Source: a virus. From it: a stretch of 23,326 bases of DNA. Positions 11,107-22,740 of this stretch are shown here, piece after piece; position 1 is the stretch's first letter; every line of letters starts with the position of its first letter. Location: positions 1 to 23,326 of the IMG/VR virus record IMGVR_UViG_3300045741_000515; one strand, 5' to 3'. Under the pieces are notes generated by a model, which made no database searches, was not told where the DNA came from, and was given only the letters and a program-made list of their open reading frames with translations. The position numbers and the translations under genes were made by a program.

Positions 11107-11331
11107 ATGAGGACCAAGGTTATCAGGACCGGCAACAGTCGAGCTGTACTGATTCCGGCGTCAATCTCGACCTCCGAGGCGCAAGACTGGAACATTGGCG
11201 ACGAGGTTGAAATCGAGAGCATCCCCTCCGGGCTTCATATCAGAAGGAAGCCAAGACGGTCGGTGCTGACGATCGCCAAAAGAGTGATGAAACGCAACGA
11301 GGCGATGCTCCACGCGCTGGCAAAGCGATGA
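11107..11331 (+). CDS. AbrB/MazE-type antitoxin (74 aa)
   Basis: The N-terminal 48 residues (MRTKVIRTGNSRAVLIPAS, then WNIGDEVEIE and LHIRR) match the swapped-hairpin SpoVT/AbrB DNA-binding fold of MazE-like antitoxins. The basic helical tail should bind and neutralise the toxin. It overlaps the Doc-like gene by 4 nt (ATGA). Likely represses its own promoter through the AGTACA-A-TGTACT palindrome. AbrB-type rather than Phd-type partners for Doc toxins are a known variant. Confidence 0.8.
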   Translation: MRTKVIRTGNSRAVLIPASISTSEAQDWNIGDEVEIESIPSGLHIRRKPRRSVLTIAKRVMKRNEAMLHALAKR

Positions 11332-11726
11332 TCGTAACTTACCTCTCCGTGTCAGACGTTCTCGAAATCCACCAACACGCCATTGAATTATCGGGCGGAA
11401 TGGAAGGCGTTCGAGATCCGGGAGCACTGGAGGCGGCGGTTATGTCGCCGCAGGCGACCTTTGGTGGCGTGCTGCTGCTTCCATCGCTCGCGGATGTCGC
11501 CGCGGCGTATACGTTCTACCTGTGTAAGTCGCATCCGTTCTTCGATGGAAACAAACGCACGTCGCTGTTTGCCGCTATGACGTTCCTAGAAATGCATGGA
11601 TATGAGATCGAAATCCCTGAATCATGGGAAGACGCTATCGTTCAGGTGGCCAACGGCGAACTATCCAGAGAGCAATTGGCCGACTTGTACGCATCCGAGA
11701 TGGGCGACCGCGGGGATTTCGTTTAG
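11328..11726 (+). CDS. doc: Doc/Fic-family toxin (132 aa)
   Basis: Complete Doc-size protein of the Fic superfamily. The motif HPFFDGNKRTS (His69 to Ser79) is the active loop. The Lys-Arg after Asn follows Doc, where the second Gly of canonical Fic motifs is replaced and the enzyme phosphorylates EF-Tu instead of AMPylating. The upstream segments IHQHAIELSGG and GVRDPGALEAAV, with SLADVAAAYTFYLCK, match the usual death-on-curing layout. Translationally coupled to the antitoxin. Its 3' end overlaps the convergent phosphatase gene by 4 nt. It may stabilise the element or act as an anti-phage module (inference). Confidence 0.85.
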   Translation: MIVTYLSVSDVLEIHQHAIELSGGMEGVRDPGALEAAVMSPQATFGGVLLLPSLADVAAAYTFYLCKSHPFFDGNKRTSLFAAMTFLEMHGYEIEIPESWEDAIVQVANGELSREQLADLYASEMGDRGDFV

Positions 11727-16668: not shown

Positions 16669-17097
16669 ATGCGCGTCTACGTTGGAGCATCAAGCCGTGA
16701 GACCGCACGGGCCGAAATGTGGATGGCAGCGCTCAAAGCTGTCGGGATCGAGGTCGTTTCGACCTGGCCGGAAGTCATCCGCAGAAACGGCGGCGAGGCC
16801 AATCCGATGCACGCACCTCGAGAAGACCGCGCCGTCTGGTCCGAGGACGACCTCGCCGAGCTCTCAACGGCGACGGTGTTCTGGTTTCTCCTGCCAACCG
16901 GTGAGATATCAGCCGGCGCCTACACGGAGTTCGGGTACGCGCTGTCCATGAACGAGATGTCCGTCGACTTTTGGGTGCTCACGTCCGGCAAGGAGACGTC
17001 CATCTTCACCGCGCTCGCGGATAACTTCGAGGAAGACCGGGATGCCTTCAAGGCGATCATGATGCGATGGGGCTTGATTAAGACGATCGAGGCATGA
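16669..17097 (+). CDS. Nucleoside 2-deoxyribosyltransferase-like protein (142 aa)
   Basis: Rossmann-like start MRVYVGASSRETARAEMW, with EDDLAELSTATVFWFLLPTGE and then SAGAYTEFGYALSMN, in which Glu87 is in the position of the catalytic Glu of the family. Such enzymes exchange or hydrolyse the glycosidic bond of (deoxy)nucleosides. GAGG precedes the ATG. Phage copies are usually read as nucleotide-salvage or base-modification genes. It ends convergently, overlapping the methyltransferase by 20 nt. Confidence 0.75.
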   Translation: MRVYVGASSRETARAEMWMAALKAVGIEVVSTWPEVIRRNGGEANPMHAPREDRAVWSEDDLAELSTATVFWFLLPTGEISAGAYTEFGYALSMNEMSVDFWVLTSGKETSIFTALADNFEEDRDAFKAIMMRWGLIKTIEA

Positions 17098-17836
17098 GGT
17101 CATGGGCGATTACGCGTCCGACTAGCTCGGCGCATTGCGGCACGACCGAGTCACCGAGCATCTCTAGTCGAGCGATGTCCACCCGCTCGGGAAACCCATT
17201 AGCCACTCGTAGACGCCCGGCGACGGGTTCCCACCAGTGCCCAGCCAGGTCTGTAAACGAGCGCACCTGGGCCATTTTCGCATCGATGGTGCGAGCTGAT
17301 TGTGTTTGCGCGTTGGCGTAGCCAACAACGAAGACGCGGGCGCGGGCATGGGGAGCCCCAACATCTCGCGCGTCAATCCGAAGGGCACGCGTTCGGTATC
17401 CGAGCACGTGCAACCCCCTCCGCACTGGGGGCAGCCATTTGCGGGTAGCGGCGCCTGCAACGTTCTCGACGACGACGATCTGTGGCTCAACTTCTTCGAC
17501 GATGCGGATGTACTCACGCCAGAGGCCGGACTTCGAGCCTTCGATTCCGCCGCCGCGCCCTCGAGATGCGTCACTAAGATCTTGACACGGGAAACCGCCA
17601 CAAATCACCTCTACTTGATCAAGAGCGTTCTCGGACATGCTTGTGCGCCGACTACCCGATACGACGCGCACATCGTTAAAACGCTTCGCTTTCGGCCAGT
17701 GTTTCGCAAGCACGGCGCGGCGGTTCGGGTCGATCTCGACCTGCCAAGCAACACGGCCGAGTCCGGCGCGTTCTAAGCCAAGCTCCAGTCCGCCAATCCC
17801 GGCGAACAGCGAGCCTATGCGCAATGTGTCACTCAT
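17078..17836 (-). CDS. C5-cytosine DNA methyltransferase (252 aa)
   Basis: Contains motif I (SLFAGIGGLELGLERAG), motif IV with the catalytic Cys84 (GGFPCQDLS), motif VI (VVVENV, 121-126), motif VIII (HARARVFVVG) and the C-terminal GDSVVPQ motif. The enzyme methylates cytosine C5 in DNA using S-adenosylmethionine. At 252 residues it is short, with a small target-recognition region between VIII and IX. No cognate restriction gene is nearby, so it is likely an orphan protective methyltransferase. Third gene of the minus unit, 24 nt after the annealing protein. Confidence 0.9.
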   Translation of the reverse strand: MSDTLRIGSLFAGIGGLELGLERAGLGRVAWQVEIDPNRRAVLAKHWPKAKRFNDVRVVSGSRRTSMSENALDQVEVICGGFPCQDLSDASRGRGGGIEGSKSGLWREYIRIVEEVEPQIVVVENVAGAATRKWLPPVRRGLHVLGYRTRALRIDARDVGAPHARARVFVVGYANAQTQSARTIDAKMAQVRSFTDLAGHWWEPVAGRLRVANGFPERVDIARLEMLGDSVVPQCAELVGRVIAHDLMPRSS

Positions 17837-17860
17837 TTGGCGCTAACCTGATGTGATGCT

Positions 17861-18922
17861 TCATCGCTCGTCGTTCGGAGACCCGGACATCCACGGCGGT
17901 TCTGCTTCTGGGTCATCCGTCGGCAACGTCTGCTGCTCGGCCTTGCGCTTCTTCATCGCGTCCTTCATCGCATCCTTCACCGCGGTCGTACCCTTGGCCT
18001 CCGCCTTGGCCTCGACCTTCTCCTTGGCGACGTCGAGCTTGGACTTCGGCGCCTTCGCCGCGAGCTGTTCAGCACGAGCGGTGAGCGCCTCGGGCCAGGT
18101 TGCCTCGCCATCGCGGATGGCAACGAACAGGCGCCGCAGCTGCTCGATTTCCGCCGGTGTGGCGACGTCGAGTTTGTGACCGAGCCATTCCTCGAGGTCC
18201 ATCGGCTGAACGCCCTGGTCGGCGAACGCGTCGCATACGGCGTTGCGTACGGCGTCGGGGTCTTTGGCGGACTCGTCCTTCAGGATGGCGTTGCAGATCT
18301 CATAGGCTTCGTCCTGTAGGTTGCCCGGGATGATGCGGAGGATGCAAGTTCGCAGCGCCTTGGAAACGAGCGCGCCCTGCTTGTTCAGGATGTCATCATC
18401 GCTGGCCTCGACGATGAACACGCGGTCGCCGTAGCTGTTCGCGCGTTCAGCGATGGGACGCTGGCCTTTGCGAAGGTTGCGGCGCTCGACGGTCTTGGAG
18501 ACCGTGACGTCGACCGGCCAGACGACGTTCGATTCGAGGTCGGTGGCCGACACGCGCATGATCCTAGTGTGCTCGTCGTCGTAAATCTGCGTGACCTCCA
18601 TCGCGATGTTGCCAAAGCACCGGGCGGCGGCCTCGGCAAAGCGAATCGACAACCCTTCGACGCCATCACCAATCGGCTTGCGATAGATGGCGGCGGCGGC
18701 GAAGTTGGGACGCCGGCATTCCTTGATCAGCGATGTCCTGACTTGGTCTAGGTTACGCGGCCGATGAAGCGCCATTGTGTATCTCGCTTCAATTTCAGCC
18801 CGCGCCTTGGCGACGAGCGCCGCGGTCGCGTTGCTCTCGCGTGACACGCTCACCCCGCCGAGATCGCGGCGAATCAGCTGGTTGGCTTCCGGTCGGTGTC
18901 CGTTGCTGCTCATGTCTTCCAC
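17861..18922 (-). CDS. Single-strand annealing protein (353 aa)
   Basis: GTG start at 18922 follows AGGAGG at 6-nt spacing, just after the exonuclease stop. The core (residues about 35-220) matches a phage family I recall alongside YqaJ exonucleases: LIKECRRPNFAAAAIYRKPIGDG, then GLSIRFAEAAARCFGN and KALRTCILRIIPGN. It is best read as a Redβ/RecT-like annealase, by analogy and context. Residues 240-275 resemble the helical tail of this group. The C terminus is Lys/Ala/Glu-rich, then an acidic end with DDPEAEPPW. Role: homologous recombination and replication with the exonuclease. Confidence 0.7.
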   Translation of the reverse strand: MEDMSSNGHRPEANQLIRRDLGGVSVSRESNATAALVAKARAEIEARYTMALHRPRNLDQVRTSLIKECRRPNFAAAAIYRKPIGDGVEGLSIRFAEAAARCFGNIAMEVTQIYDDEHTRIMRVSATDLESNVVWPVDVTVSKTVERRNLRKGQRPIAERANSYGDRVFIVEASDDDILNKQGALVSKALRTCILRIIPGNLQDEAYEICNAILKDESAKDPDAVRNAVCDAFADQGVQPMDLEEWLGHKLDVATPAEIEQLRRLFVAIRDGEATWPEALTARAEQLAAKAPKSKLDVAKEKVEAKAEAKGTTAVKDAMKDAMKKRKAEQQTLPTDDPEAEPPWMSGSPNDER

Positions 18923-18923
18923 G

Positions 18924-20033
18924 TCAATCCTCCTTGCTCGAGTTCTTGCTCCACGACCTCGGCACGCAAAAGCGCCTCGTTCCTGGAACCGGTTCGGTGT
19001 GTAGCGCGATACTGCGCCGTTCGTCTGCGATGTTCGTGAGCGCGGTCGACCAGTCGCCGAGCTTGCTCATGACCGTCGACCAGTCATCGCTCTGTGCGCA
19101 ATCCAGGATGTCGCCGGTCGCGCTGAGCACGAGCTGGGCCTCGGTGACCAGCGAGCGCCAGGCCGCCTCCCAGTTGGTCCTCGAGCTCGCCTTGGATGCC
19201 TTGTAGGAGATGGAGCTCCGGCCCTTCTTCTCAGCTGGGTCGCCCCACTTGAGGCCAGCGTGGTCGCCACACACCGCCTTGAGATTCTGCTTGAGGATTT
19301 CGACCTCGGCCTCGACCTCCCTGGACCGCTCGAGTGCGAGCCGTAGCCGATGAACGGTCGCCATCGCCTCTGGCTTGTCATCCAGCGAGACCAGGTCTGT
19401 ATGGCGTTGTGGGTATGTTGTGGATAGGTACCTTGAATAACTCTCAGAACCATCCGGGTTTGGAGGAACGTCCCTTCGGATGTGATCTACCAGGAAACGT
19501 TCGGCGCTCTCACGAAGCATGCCGATCAGATCTTCGTCGCGCTGGATGCGGTAGTCGGTTGGTTGGCCATCGATGAACGCCGTGAGGTGCCATTCATCCA
19601 GGCCGGACACGAACAGATTCCACTCGCACTGGATGAGCTCGTGCTGCGGGACCTCATCGGTTCCCGGGTCGCCGTACTGGTGCGCGGCGCGGAAGGAATG
19701 TGTTTTGATCTCCAAGCCGTTGCACGGGCGAGCCTCGCGCGCCCGGTAACAAACTCCGTCGGGAGTTGCAAGGGCCCATGCGACCGTTGGGTGCTGCAGC
19801 GTGCCCGGGACTTCCACGCGAACGCCGTGGCGCTCGGCGTAGTCATCGCGGATGGGACCTTCAAGGATGTCACCCCAGCGAGTTCGGTCGTTGCCGAGGA
19901 ATGGCGCAGCGCGTCCAGTTTTCTCTAAGTAAACATCGATGGCCGACCGGTAGGGGTGGAGACCCACCAGAGACGCTACATCTGTGGCTGTGATGCCAGT
20001 CCGTCGCTGGGCTAGCTGTTCAGGGCTGAGCAT
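18924..20033 (-). CDS. YqaJ-type recombination exonuclease (369 aa)
   Basis: YqaJ-like viral recombinase nuclease. GITATDVASLVGLHPY near the start, TRWGDILEGPIRDDY with Glu58, ATPDG with Asp92 and LEIKT (Glu108/Lys110) form the expected D-ExK active site. The EVPQHELIQCEWNLFVSG helix follows. The enzyme would resect double-stranded ends 5' to 3' for the annealing protein. First gene of the minus unit; no Shine-Dalgarno, but TAGCTT lies 6 nt before the ATG on this strand. The C terminus (about 230-369) is helical and probably mediates oligomerisation or partner binding. Confidence 0.85.
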   Translation of the reverse strand: MLSPEQLAQRRTGITATDVASLVGLHPYRSAIDVYLEKTGRAAPFLGNDRTRWGDILEGPIRDDYAERHGVRVEVPGTLQHPTVAWALATPDGVCYRAREARPCNGLEIKTHSFRAAHQYGDPGTDEVPQHELIQCEWNLFVSGLDEWHLTAFIDGQPTDYRIQRDEDLIGMLRESAERFLVDHIRRDVPPNPDGSESYSRYLSTTYPQRHTDLVSLDDKPEAMATVHRLRLALERSREVEAEVEILKQNLKAVCGDHAGLKWGDPAEKKGRSSISYKASKASSRTNWEAAWRSLVTEAQLVLSATGDILDCAQSDDWSTVMSKLGDWSTALTNIADERRSIALHTEPVPGTRRFCVPRSWSKNSSKED

Positions 20034-20177
20034 GAATGCAAGCTAGCAAGCACGTCTGACAACCGACTGCTCCGGTGGATGTTCACAGGGTTGTTCACAG
20101 GGCTATCGTCGGTCTAAATTTTTTGTCTTCAAAAATACTGGACGAAATGACCTTCACCGGCGTAGGACCATGCTCAC
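20034..20177. promoter_or_regulatory. Divergent control region with DnaA-box-like repeats and AT-rich stretch
   Basis: 144 bp between the exonuclease and regulator starts. TGTTCACAGGG occurs twice (20080-20090, 20092-20102), with a 12-bp period. The second copy lies in TTGTTCACA (20091-20099), 8/9 to the DnaA box TTATNCACA; the first is a weaker match. An AT-rich block at 20115-20137 follows. The repeats could be operators for the adjacent XRE protein or DnaA sites; no promoter boxes are clear except TAGCTT at 20045-20040 (minus). Confidence 0.5.
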
Positions 20178-20444
20178 ATGGCAGCGCTTCGTAAGACATA
20201 CCCGAGACGACGCATAGCCCACCGTCTCAGGTTGTTGCGCATCAGAGCCGGGGTAACCCAAGAGGAGATCGCTGGCCAATTGCGACTCAGACGCAACCAG
20301 TGGTGCAGAATCGAAGCGGGAGATCAGTCAATTCCAGCAGAGCGTTTAGTCGATATCGCTCGCATTATCAGCGCAACTGTCGACGAGCTCCTAGGGATCA
20401 AAAAAAGCAAGACAGCTAACAACCAACCCATTGGAACGCCCTAA
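20178..20444 (+). CDS. XRE-family helix-turn-helix regulator (88 aa)
   Basis: HTH_3 domain at about residues 15-75: LRLLRIRAGVTQEEIAGQLRL, then NQWCRIEAGDQSIP and the closing helix ERLVDIARIISATVDELLG. The basic N terminus and a short tail complete it. It probably binds operators in the divergent region just upstream and switches the recombination and replication units. The AGGA upstream is about 10 nt from the ATG. Overlaps the next start (TAATG). Confidence 0.85.
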   Translation: MAALRKTYPRRRIAHRLRLLRIRAGVTQEEIAGQLRLRRNQWCRIEAGDQSIPAERLVDIARIISATVDELLGIKKSKTANNQPIGTP

Positions 20445-21400
20445 TGGACTGGTCCAACGAAGAGTACGTCCGTCTCTACACACGAGAGACAGCCGACGAC
20501 CTGGACCTCTCATGGGAGGCTATCGCGCTATGGCGAGCGATGCTGTGCAAGTTCGATCGGGCCGGCGTTATCCAGGCGAAAAACGGCTGGCGCAGTGTAG
20601 CCGCGCTTACTAGGATTCCACTTGAAGTAGTCGAGCGGGCGGGGGCAGAACTCATCCTCGATGGCAGGGTGAGGGTAGCTCACGGTGGCTTCCTCGCGCC
20701 AAACTTCACGGAGGCACAGACGGCGTCCAAAAGTGACAAGGCGCGTCAAAAAGAGTCGCGAGATCGTAGGCGAGCTAACTATACGGTCACAAAACGTGAC
20801 GTTCTGTCACAAAACGTGACCGAAAGTCACGACGCGTCACACGCTGTCACGTTTGGTCACGCGCTGTCACAAAATGTCACTCTTACCTCTGCTCTGCCTC
20901 CCGTTGCTCCCGTTGCTTTATCTCTCCCTGTCACAAAACGTGACACCACGCCCCTGTCGCAAGACGCGACAGGGGAGACGGGCAGCCCCCTTGGCTTGGT
21001 TTCGGTTCCAGACCATCCGGCGGCGCTCGCAAACCAACCCAAGTCCAGACCCAAGCCTAAGTCGTTCGCTTCACCTGAAGCCATTGCAGCCGCGACCCGA
21101 TTGCTGACCCGCGTCATCGCCAACAACCCGAGCAGCACGCTTGCGAAGGCGCCTGAAGCCAAAAGGGAACAGACCGCTGTGCGATGGGCCAACGCCATGC
21201 GCTTGCTGCACGACGTGGACGGTCACAGCTGGGAGGAAATCGACAAGGTGATCGACTGGTCACAGCAAGAAGCCTTTTGGAAAACGACCATCCTGAGCGG
21301 CGACAATCTTCGAGAGAAATGGGATCGGCTGACAGCCAAGATCAACCACCCCATCAATCAAAAACCATCCGAACAGATCCGCAACCACAAGGTACTCTAG
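20444..21400 (+). CDS. Phage replication initiator / replisome organiser (318 aa)
   Basis: N-terminal winged-helix-like domain (about 1-85), a flexible linker (about 95-205) and a conserved helical C terminus (WANAMRLLHDVDGHSWEEID, then FWKTTILSGDNLREKWDRL) typical of phage replisome organisers. Such C-terminal domains are proposed to interact with the helicase or helicase loader, and the next gene is a DnaB. Residues about 115-146 are encoded by a phased GTCAC/GTGAC array (20786-20880), reminiscent of the lambda O gene carrying its own origin. Start at TAATG with the regulator stop. Confidence 0.8.
   Translation: MDWSNEEYVRLYTRETADDLDLSWEAIALWRAMLCKFDRAGVIQAKNGWRSVAALTRIPLEVVERAGAELILDGRVRVAHGGFLAPNFTEAQTASKSDKARQKESRDRRRANYTVTKRDVLSQNVTESHDASHAVTFGHALSQNVTLTSALPPVAPVALSLPVTKRDTTPLSQDATGETGSPLGLVSVPDHPAALANQPKSRPKPKSFASPEAIAAATRLLTRVIANNPSSTLAKAPEAKREQTAVRWANAMRLLHDVDGHSWEEIDKVIDWSQQEAFWKTTILSGDNLREKWDRLTAKINHPINQKPSEQIRNHKVL
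20786..20880. repeat. Phased GTCAC/GTGAC iteron array, candidate origin
   Basis: Ten half-sites begin at 20786, 20796, 20806, ... 20876, exactly every 10 bp (one helical turn). Orders: GTCAC, GTGAC, GTCAC, GTGAC, then six GTCAC. Pairs at 20786/20796 and 20806/20816 form palindromes with AAAAC spacers. A 10-bp period is not a multiple of the codon length, so the array is selected at DNA level even though it stays open in frame. Binding by the initiator itself is inference from the lambda O parallel. Confidence 0.8.
20930..20975. repeat. Palindrome GTCAC-N5-GTGAC and 10-bp perfect hairpin
   Basis: One more palindromic half-site pair (20930-20934 and 20940-20944) lies 54 bp after the array, across a pyrimidine-rich stretch (20881-20930). 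A perfect inverted repeat CCCCTGTCGC/GCGACAGGGG (20951-20960, 20966-20975) follows, with a 5-nt loop. This variant keeps the GTCGC/GCGAC half-sites 10 bp apart. It could be a single-strand primer-loading structure or a further binding site. Confidence 0.7.
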
Positions 21401-21402
21401 CC

Positions 21403-22740
21403 ATGGACGCACAACACGAACTCGAACAATCCGTCATCGGCGCGGTTTTGCTACGCGCCGACACTCTCGCGCTCTTGCCAACGCTCGAGACCGGCGACTT
21501 CCACGATCTCCGAGGGCGAGCAACCTGGGACGCGATACGCAAGCTCGAGTACGCCGGTCAGCCCATCGACGTCACGACCATCGGCGACGAGCTCGGCCGC
21601 GACGGCAAGTTAGACTCGGTTGGCTGGACGTATCTCAGCGGCTGCGCGGTTCACGTGCCGACGGTGGACAACGCAATCGAGTACGCAAAGCGACTGCGCG
21701 ACGCGAGCCTTCGTCGTCGGCTTTTGGAATCGCTCTCCGAGGTTCTGCAGGCCGCGAAAGACGGTCAACTCACCGGCGCAGAGCTGCTCTCGATGGCTGC
21801 CGAAAAGCTGTCCGTCCTCGACGCGGAACAACCCGAGGATGCGCTTAGCATCGGCGACGTTCTCCGACGGCGCATGAAGCAGCTCGAGCAAATCGCCCAA
21901 GACCGCGCGACTGGCGTGCGCTCACTGAGCGGTTTTCCAACCGGTATTGCGAGGCTCGACGAGAAAACAGGCGGATGGCAATCGGGGATCGTCTCGATTG
22001 TCGCAGCCAGGCCAGGCACCGGAAAGAGTTCCTGTCTGCTTGCCACCGCCGACGAATGCAGCAAGGCCGGGTTTGGTGTTCACCTGTTTTCCCTCGAAGA
22101 CACCGATAGCTCGTACGCCGACCGCGCGATGTCTCGCGACTCCGGCGTGCCAGCTGAAGTCATTCGCAATGCCGAGCTCAATCGCGAGCAGATGCTCAAG
22201 CTGCACTCAACGCTCAACGCACTCACCCGTCGACAAGGCTGGCTGTTCGATGGGCGCAGTGGCATTACCGCCGACGAAATAGTTCGCTCGGTTCGGCGCC
22301 ATCGCAAGACCAACGGCACGCGCGTGGTCATCGTCGACTACGTGCAACTCGTGAAGCGCCCGCCGCGAGCATCCGCGCATGAAGCGCTGAGCGAAATCGT
22401 CACGACGTTTGCCGACGCTGCTAAGCAGGACAACCTAGCTTACGTGGTCCTGAGTCAGCTCAACCGCGAGCTCGAGAAACGCGTCGACAAGCGTCCACAA
22501 CTCTCAGACCTACGCGAGAGCGGCTCGCTCGAGGAACGCGCCAAGTGCGTCGTCGGTTTGTATCGAGGCGCGCTTTACGACGACAAACCCAAGAGTGGGG
22601 TCGACTACGCACCAGACAGCCCGCCGCCGAGTCTCGAGGAATTTGAACGTCAGGTGCAACTGCTTGTGCTCAAGAACAGCAACGGCAGAACCGGTGTGAT
22701 TTACGCCAGCTGGTTCGGCCCCACGACGAGAATGGAGTGA
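21403..22740 (+). CDS. dnaB: DnaB-type replicative helicase (445 aa)
   Basis: N-terminal helical domain (LEQSVIGAVLLRADTLALL, GDFHDLRGRATWDAIRKL) and a RecA-like C-terminal domain. Walker A ARPGTGKSS at 202-210, Walker B VVIVDY (308-313), sensor VLSQLNRELEKRVDKRPQLSDLRESGSLEERA, and the arginine region near the end. Length and domain order fit a complete DnaB. It unwinds the fork 5' to 3' and would be recruited by the preceding initiator. Start at ATG 21403, 2 nt after the upstream stop. Confidence 0.9.
   Translation: MDAQHELEQSVIGAVLLRADTLALLPTLETGDFHDLRGRATWDAIRKLEYAGQPIDVTTIGDELGRDGKLDSVGWTYLSGCAVHVPTVDNAIEYAKRLRDASLRRRLLESLSEVLQAAKDGQLTGAELLSMAAEKLSVLDAEQPEDALSIGDVLRRRMKQLEQIAQDRATGVRSLSGFPTGIARLDEKTGGWQSGIVSIVAARPGTGKSSCLLATADECSKAGFGVHLFSLEDTDSSYADRAMSRDSGVPAEVIRNAELNREQMLKLHSTLNALTRRQGWLFDGRSGITADEIVRSVRRHRKTNGTRVVIVDYVQLVKRPPRASAHEALSEIVTTFADAAKQDNLAYVVLSQLNRELEKRVDKRPQLSDLRESGSLEERAKCVVGLYRGALYDDKPKSGVDYAPDSPPPSLEEFERQVQLLVLKNSNGRTGVIYASWFGPTTRME

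Follow-up and report, generated by a model that had tools for sequence, protein, structure and literature searches.

A helically phased array of GTSAC half-sites inside a phage initiator gene as a probable part of the replication origin

An uninterrupted series of GTSAC half-sites (GTCAC or GTGAC), spaced at one per DNA helix turn within a phage replication initiator gene, very probably represents the initiator-binding part of the phage replication origin, to judge from the sequence and its relatives. The window, that is, the whole stretch of DNA that was analyzed, comprises 23,326 nt of the viral record IMGVR_UViG_3300045741_000515. The preliminary description had proposed a compact origin of a non-lambda phage in the linker-coding part of the initiator gene; the identity of this gene and the placement of the array are supported by the present analysis, and the origin role is what we infer. 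The features that appear to be new are the tandem, one-per-turn form of the array, its spread in uncultured phages, the switch of the site motif at a fixed spacing, and a tract with a 5-bp period; the open-access full-text literature that was searched contained no account of GTCAC arrays or of such a layout, which does not prove that none exists. The sequence rule that emerges may locate the replication origins of many uncultured phages without experiment.

The array and the initiator gene that contains it

The half-sites start at positions 20786, 20796 (reverse), 20806, 20816 (reverse), 20826, 20836, 20846, 20856, 20866 and 20876, with no gap, so that their orientations read > < > < > > > > > > along the array. 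They are read in all three codon phases of the gene, as VT, as RD or H, and as S. Both the positions and the use of three phases agree with the preliminary description, and its contention that protein repetition is insufficient to account for the pattern also holds: in 2000 synonymous-codon shuffles of the gene, which preserve the protein, the longest chain at 10-bp steps never exceeded 6 sites (a single case), vs 10 in the actual gene, and the longest chain in 2000 codon-order shuffles was 2. The number of pentamers in the whole window is ordinary (70 vs 62 expected); their exceptional feature is the phasing only, not the number. The dyads within and beyond the array are listed in Table 1; a dyad of the first type is also present in L049, L080, L089, L093 and L094, and the third dyad begins 54 bp past the start of the last array site.

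Table 1. Features of the initiator locus in the window
Feature	Position	Strand	Basis or remark
Replication initiator gene, 318 aa (N-domain, linker, C-domain)	20444..21400	+	ORF, PHROG, phi80 gp15 homology
N-domain coding part: predicted winged helix, then basic C-terminal helix	20444..20785	+	26-member alignment A2, AlphaFold2
Ten GTSAC half-sites (GTCAC/GTGAC), exact 10-bp steps	20786..20880	.	inside initiator gene
Dyad 1, GTCAC-AAAAC-GTGAC	20786..20800	.	sequence
Dyad 2, GTCAC-AAAAC-GTGAC	20806..20820	.	other frame: SQNVT, not VTKRD
Pyrimidine-rich tract, candidate unwinding element	20881..20929	+	adjoins array 3' end
Dyad 3, GTCAC-AAAAC-GTGAC	20930..20944	.	off 10-bp register
Variant dyad, GTCGC-AAGAC-GCGAC	20956..20970	.	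symmetric; both arms changed alike
C-domain coding part, DnaD-like/O-like helicase recruitment domain, aa 200-311	21041..21376	+	PHROG, phi80 gp15
DnaB-type replicative helicase gene, next after initiator	21403..22740	+	Pfam DnaB_C, E 1.4e-54

The initiator matches PHROG families 2514 (E = 2e-22), 391 (E = 1e-17), 4880 and 277, with the annotations DnaD-like helicase loader, O-like and replisome organizer. The AlphaFold2 model of the N-domain, the presumed reader of the half-sites (pLDDT 82.9, pTM 0.70), matches winged-helix domains in structure comparison; the domain has no significant match in Pfam. The C-domain aligns over 111 columns with that of phi80 gp15 (32% identity, E = 4e-15), and the linker that connects the two domains is encoded by the array. 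Sequence searches of the PDB with the N-domain or the C-domain gave no convincing match, and the closest matches among bacterial genomes come from Polyangiaceae and other deltaproteobacterial metagenome bins.

The genes around the initiator encode an HTH regulator, a RecE-like exonuclease and DnaB. Known plasmid centromeres may consist of phased short direct repeats, and the array could in principle be a partition site for a ParR- or ParB-like protein; however, neither a partition ATPase nor a ribbon-helix-helix gene was recognized among these neighbors and the array travels with initiator N-domains, so that such a role is extremely unlikely.

Several other features of the window are worth recording. 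In the region that separates the divergently oriented exonuclease and HTH genes, TGTTCACAG is repeated in tandem, 12 bp apart, at 20077-20100, and is a possible operator of the HTH regulator. The leftward cluster at 17078-20033 (minus strand) encodes a C5-cytosine methyltransferase, a phrog_3657 protein and the YqaJ/RecE-like exonuclease. A MazE-like antitoxin gene followed by a Fic/Doc-family gene (11107-11726) is likely to be a toxin-antitoxin pair, and a gene for a proprotein convertase P-domain protein, unusual for a phage, is located at 1743-2870.

Phasing of the half-sites in related initiators

A search for five GTSAC units at 10-bp steps in 2.9 million viral contigs matched 98 stretches, compared to 11 for the reversed pattern. 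Nearly all of the reversed-pattern matches are simple tandem decamers; most of the GTSAC matches in long ORFs, by contrast, show spacers of differing sequence within ORFs about 300 aa long, and the array genes with a PHROG family match mostly encode replication proteins. Because the scanned loci were preselected for the array, relatives were gathered through the N-domain peptide alone, with tblastn E-values that apply inside candidate stretches and not to the whole collection. This yielded group 1, which consists of 67 nonredundant N-domain relatives including the window; redundancy was removed by shared 14-mers rather than by phylogeny, and therefore the locus counts are not counts of independent events. 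No N-domain relatives of this group were found in cultured phages.

At least one 10-bp GTSAC pair is present in 63 of the 67 group-1 genes (synonymous shuffles predict 20.8 and never exceed 30), and the pairs number 285, vs 26 expected from the same shuffles (maximum 40). The distances between sites peak at 10, 20-21, 30-32, 40-42, 50-53 and 60-63 bp, that is, they track the DNA helix (10-10.5 bp per turn) and not the codon. The phased sites occupy all three frames, with GTGAC absent from the frame in which it would give a stop and GTCAC occurring there. The nearest relative, L049, matches the window at each of the 50 site bases but at only 24 of the 45 spacer bases (P = 6e-9), and 18 of 32 residues are shared by the two proteins across the array. 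The preliminary description had suggested examining related initiators for phasing that persists while the linker changes, and this is the pattern seen, both in L049 and in the 67 relatives, where helical phasing is far above the level of synonymous shuffles. Selection on the array acts at the DNA level.

These observations bear on the possibility that the array is incidental to a linker peptide that is itself repetitive (VT..SH..), with selection or slippage acting at the protein level. The linker is indeed of low complexity and partly repetitive as a protein, and some 12-bp GTSAC arrays are in-frame repeats such as GNVTGNVT. However, a 10-bp step is off frame, with every phase occupied; about 90% of the 10-bp pairs disappear in shuffles that preserve the protein; the pentamers stay while the spacers vary; and a family may switch the pentamer yet keep the spacing. 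A peptide-level origin of the array is thus highly unlikely.

Within the initiator gene, the order is N-domain, array, tract and C-domain, and a DnaB-like gene lies downstream of the initiator in 26 of the 60 testable relatives. One array-bearing initiator (L027:1735-3231) contains an extra T5orf172/MUG113-like stretch between the N-domain and the array.

A second group of initiators, to which that of the E. coli phage Tritos (L189) belongs, has an N-domain weakly related to that of group 1 (hhalign E = 6e-6, probability 85%) and was gathered in the same way, via the N-domain (n = 70). GTSAC pairs at 10 bp are found in 45 of the 70 members (11.7 expected) and total 120, vs 13 expected from synonymous shuffles. 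Most of the other 25 members have GNAACGCCA in place of GTSAC (18 members), with identical 10-bp spacing and location, and AACGC occurs as a 10-bp repeat in 21 of these 25 (2.9 expected). In this group, the sequence of the site has switched and the spacing is fixed. Several alignment columns co-vary with the motif switch, but none is clean and the phylogeny was left in, so that no specificity residue is claimed. Families with a changed site and unchanged spacing offer a way to work out recognition by the N-domain. In Tritos (L189:1489-2559), a second GTCAC cluster with steps of 10, 10 and 11 is found at gene positions 128-192, in the part coding for the DNA-binding domain, in addition to the linker cluster; related loci such as L002, L003 and L082 encode a similar SRNVTRGH stretch at this position.

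The notion of 10 bp as the sole spacing was dropped because 11-bp scans give similar initiator genes: with four units, the 11-bp scan recovered at least 35 different ORFs whose spacers are diverse and of which many belong to replication families, and the matches listed for the 12-bp scan, also with four units, are lambda-O orthologues mixed with protein-level repeats. The numbers from these four-unit scans, which are lower bounds, are not comparable with those obtained with five units at 10 bp. GTSAC at 11-bp steps was observed in many other phage initiators (L277-L396), often with short-period tracts behind. It seems that both 10-bp and 11-bp forms of the helical design exist.

Comparison with lambda and other origins

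The preliminary description had likened the array to the lambda iterons in gene O, and the likeness proved closer than claimed: in lambda, too, 5-bp half-sites lie about 10 bp apart around AAAAC (CCCTC-AAAAC-GAGGG in lambda, GTCAC-AAAAC-GTGAC in the window). The half-sites CCCTC/GAGGG and their near forms are located at positions 350, 360, 370, 380, 394, 404, 417 and 428 of lambda gene O. The origin of lambda and the probable origin of the window both lie between the parts of the initiator gene that code for the DNA-binding and C-terminal domains, with a tract 3' of the sites. The differences are substantial as well: lambda has four dyads at steps of 20, 24 and 23 bp, in contrast to the denser and more regular array of ten ungapped sites, the last six of them head to tail; a P-type loader gene adjoins O where the window has the DnaB gene; and the lambda tract is AT-rich, whereas that of the window is pyrimidine-rich. 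The N-domain shows no detectable homology to lambda O (hhalign probability 7.9%, 33 columns). Given an N-domain with no detectable homology, a tract that is not AT-rich and the lack of a P-type loader, we do not file the system in the lambda O family; the window origin probably works like that of lambda, without family membership.

The iterons of lambda are proven elements of the origin to which O binds; lambdoid O proteins, which are dimers, bind the iterons as well as single-stranded DNA of the AT-rich tract (PMC7466680). A viral contig (L413) encodes a lambda O orthologue (49% identity over the N-terminal 161 residues) with GTSAC half-sites at 11-12 bp steps in the lambda iteron position, directly preceding an AT-rich stretch nearly identical to that of lambda. 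The role of the GTSAC half-site is therefore backed by homology and not just by analogy, and the textbook iterons of lambda would be one case of a broader design with a half-site per helix turn. In phi80, whose gp15 is homologous to the window initiator in the C-domain, the half-site steps in gene 15 are 10, 11, 10 and 21.

The layout of N-domain, linker and DnaD-like C-domain also resembles the RepA_N initiators (pSK41, pTZ2162) and the Vibrio cholerae PLE RepA. RepA_N initiators consist of an N-domain, an origin-encoded linker and a DnaD-like C-domain, the pSK41 origin is inside rep, and in origins of this type semi-palindromic sites converge on a poly-A tract (PMC5703833, PMC7145576). The window C-domain is DnaD-like by its match to PHROG 2514 (E = 2e-22), and the N-domain model compares to the RepA_N N-domains 4pql, 4pt7, 5kbj and 4pta with Z scores of 7.3-8.1, a range in which generic winged helices score likewise. 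RepA_N (PF06970) gave no Pfam match in the window initiator up to E = 1, and four Rep boxes differ from the continuous one-per-turn array.

The adjoining 3' tract and a possible route to strand opening

In most relatives, a second repeat with a period of 5 bp lies directly 3' of the array. The group-1 units are CCTAG/CCGTG/CTGAG (lag-5 identity of 0.49, vs at most 0.396 in synonymous shuffles and 0.26 elsewhere in the gene), and those of group 2 are TAGAG/AAGAG/GAGAG (0.586, vs at most 0.387 in synonymous shuffles). Since the period is not a multiple of three, this is a DNA pattern; where an in-frame stop would arise, the TAG unit is swapped for CCGTG, AAGAG or GAGAG and the ladder continues. 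AT enrichment of the group-1 tract is mild (about 0.41 vs 0.33). The pyrimidine-rich tract of the window occupies the same site, with a pyrimidine content of 75-82%; over 20881-20930, C+T amounts to 82%, a value reached by only 0.03% of the window 50-mers. A 5-bp period in the window's own tract is not significant (P = 0.37), and its AT content is only slightly elevated (47% vs 42% in the gene), short of a clear AT-rich tract of the lambda type. The 5-bp tract amounts to a testable proposal for strand opening in GC-rich phages that have no obvious AT-rich element.

An initiator bound within its own gene could stall transcription, and in many Rep_3 plasmids control through iterons is a main means of regulating copy number (PMC5703833), a precedent for considering the array an operator for self-repression or a site of handcuffing against over-replication rather than a replication start. 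Against this, the array agrees in position, in order and in its flanking tract with the lambda origin and its proven iterons, and conservation of the adjacent tract extends over two N-domain groups, although an operator would not need it; we consider this explanation quite unlikely.

For the array as an origin, we infer that the initiator binds and forms a filament, that the DNA then melts and that the helicase is loaded. The N-terminal winged-helix domain would read the GTSAC half-site, one protomer per helix turn; as the half-sites are one turn apart, adjacent protomers would be neighbors on the same face of the helix and may assemble into a cooperative, filament-like complex. Under the resulting strain, the DNA would open in the strand-asymmetric tract that adjoins the array on its 3' side, and DnaB, the product of the next gene, could be brought onto the opened strand by the C-domains on their flexible, origin-encoded linker. 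GC skew along the 23-kb fragment has no clear turn at the array, a fragment this short being uninformative.

A combination of double-strand sites followed by a short-period tract is known from DnaA boxes and DnaA-trios (PMC10797057), and a tract behind the phased half-sites could likewise be followed by the initiator as a single strand. The two arrangements differ in period (5 vs 3) and in sequence; moreover, the tract of the window is without a significant 5-bp period, and its phage initiator has no recognized AAA+ domain. We tentatively raise the possibility, which we regard as rather doubtful, of a large, unnamed class of phage origins in which half-sites phased at 10 or 11 bp are followed by 5-nt CCTAG/TAGAG units, each taken by one protomer after opening, with TAG avoided unit by unit; if it exists, this layout would be the phage counterpart of DnaA boxes and DnaA-trios, with a different step. 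A DnaT-type C-domain that would take one 5-nt unit each was considered and dropped, given that in the DnaT-ssDNA structure the strand is bound in two-nucleotide segments per subunit (PMC4132743). Finally, the initiator gene of a firmicute phage, Lactobacillus phage JNU_P2 (L272), has no phased GTCAC array but contains at gene position 366 a purine tract of strong 5-bp period, AAAGT/AAAGG, with a lag-5 identity of 0.77.
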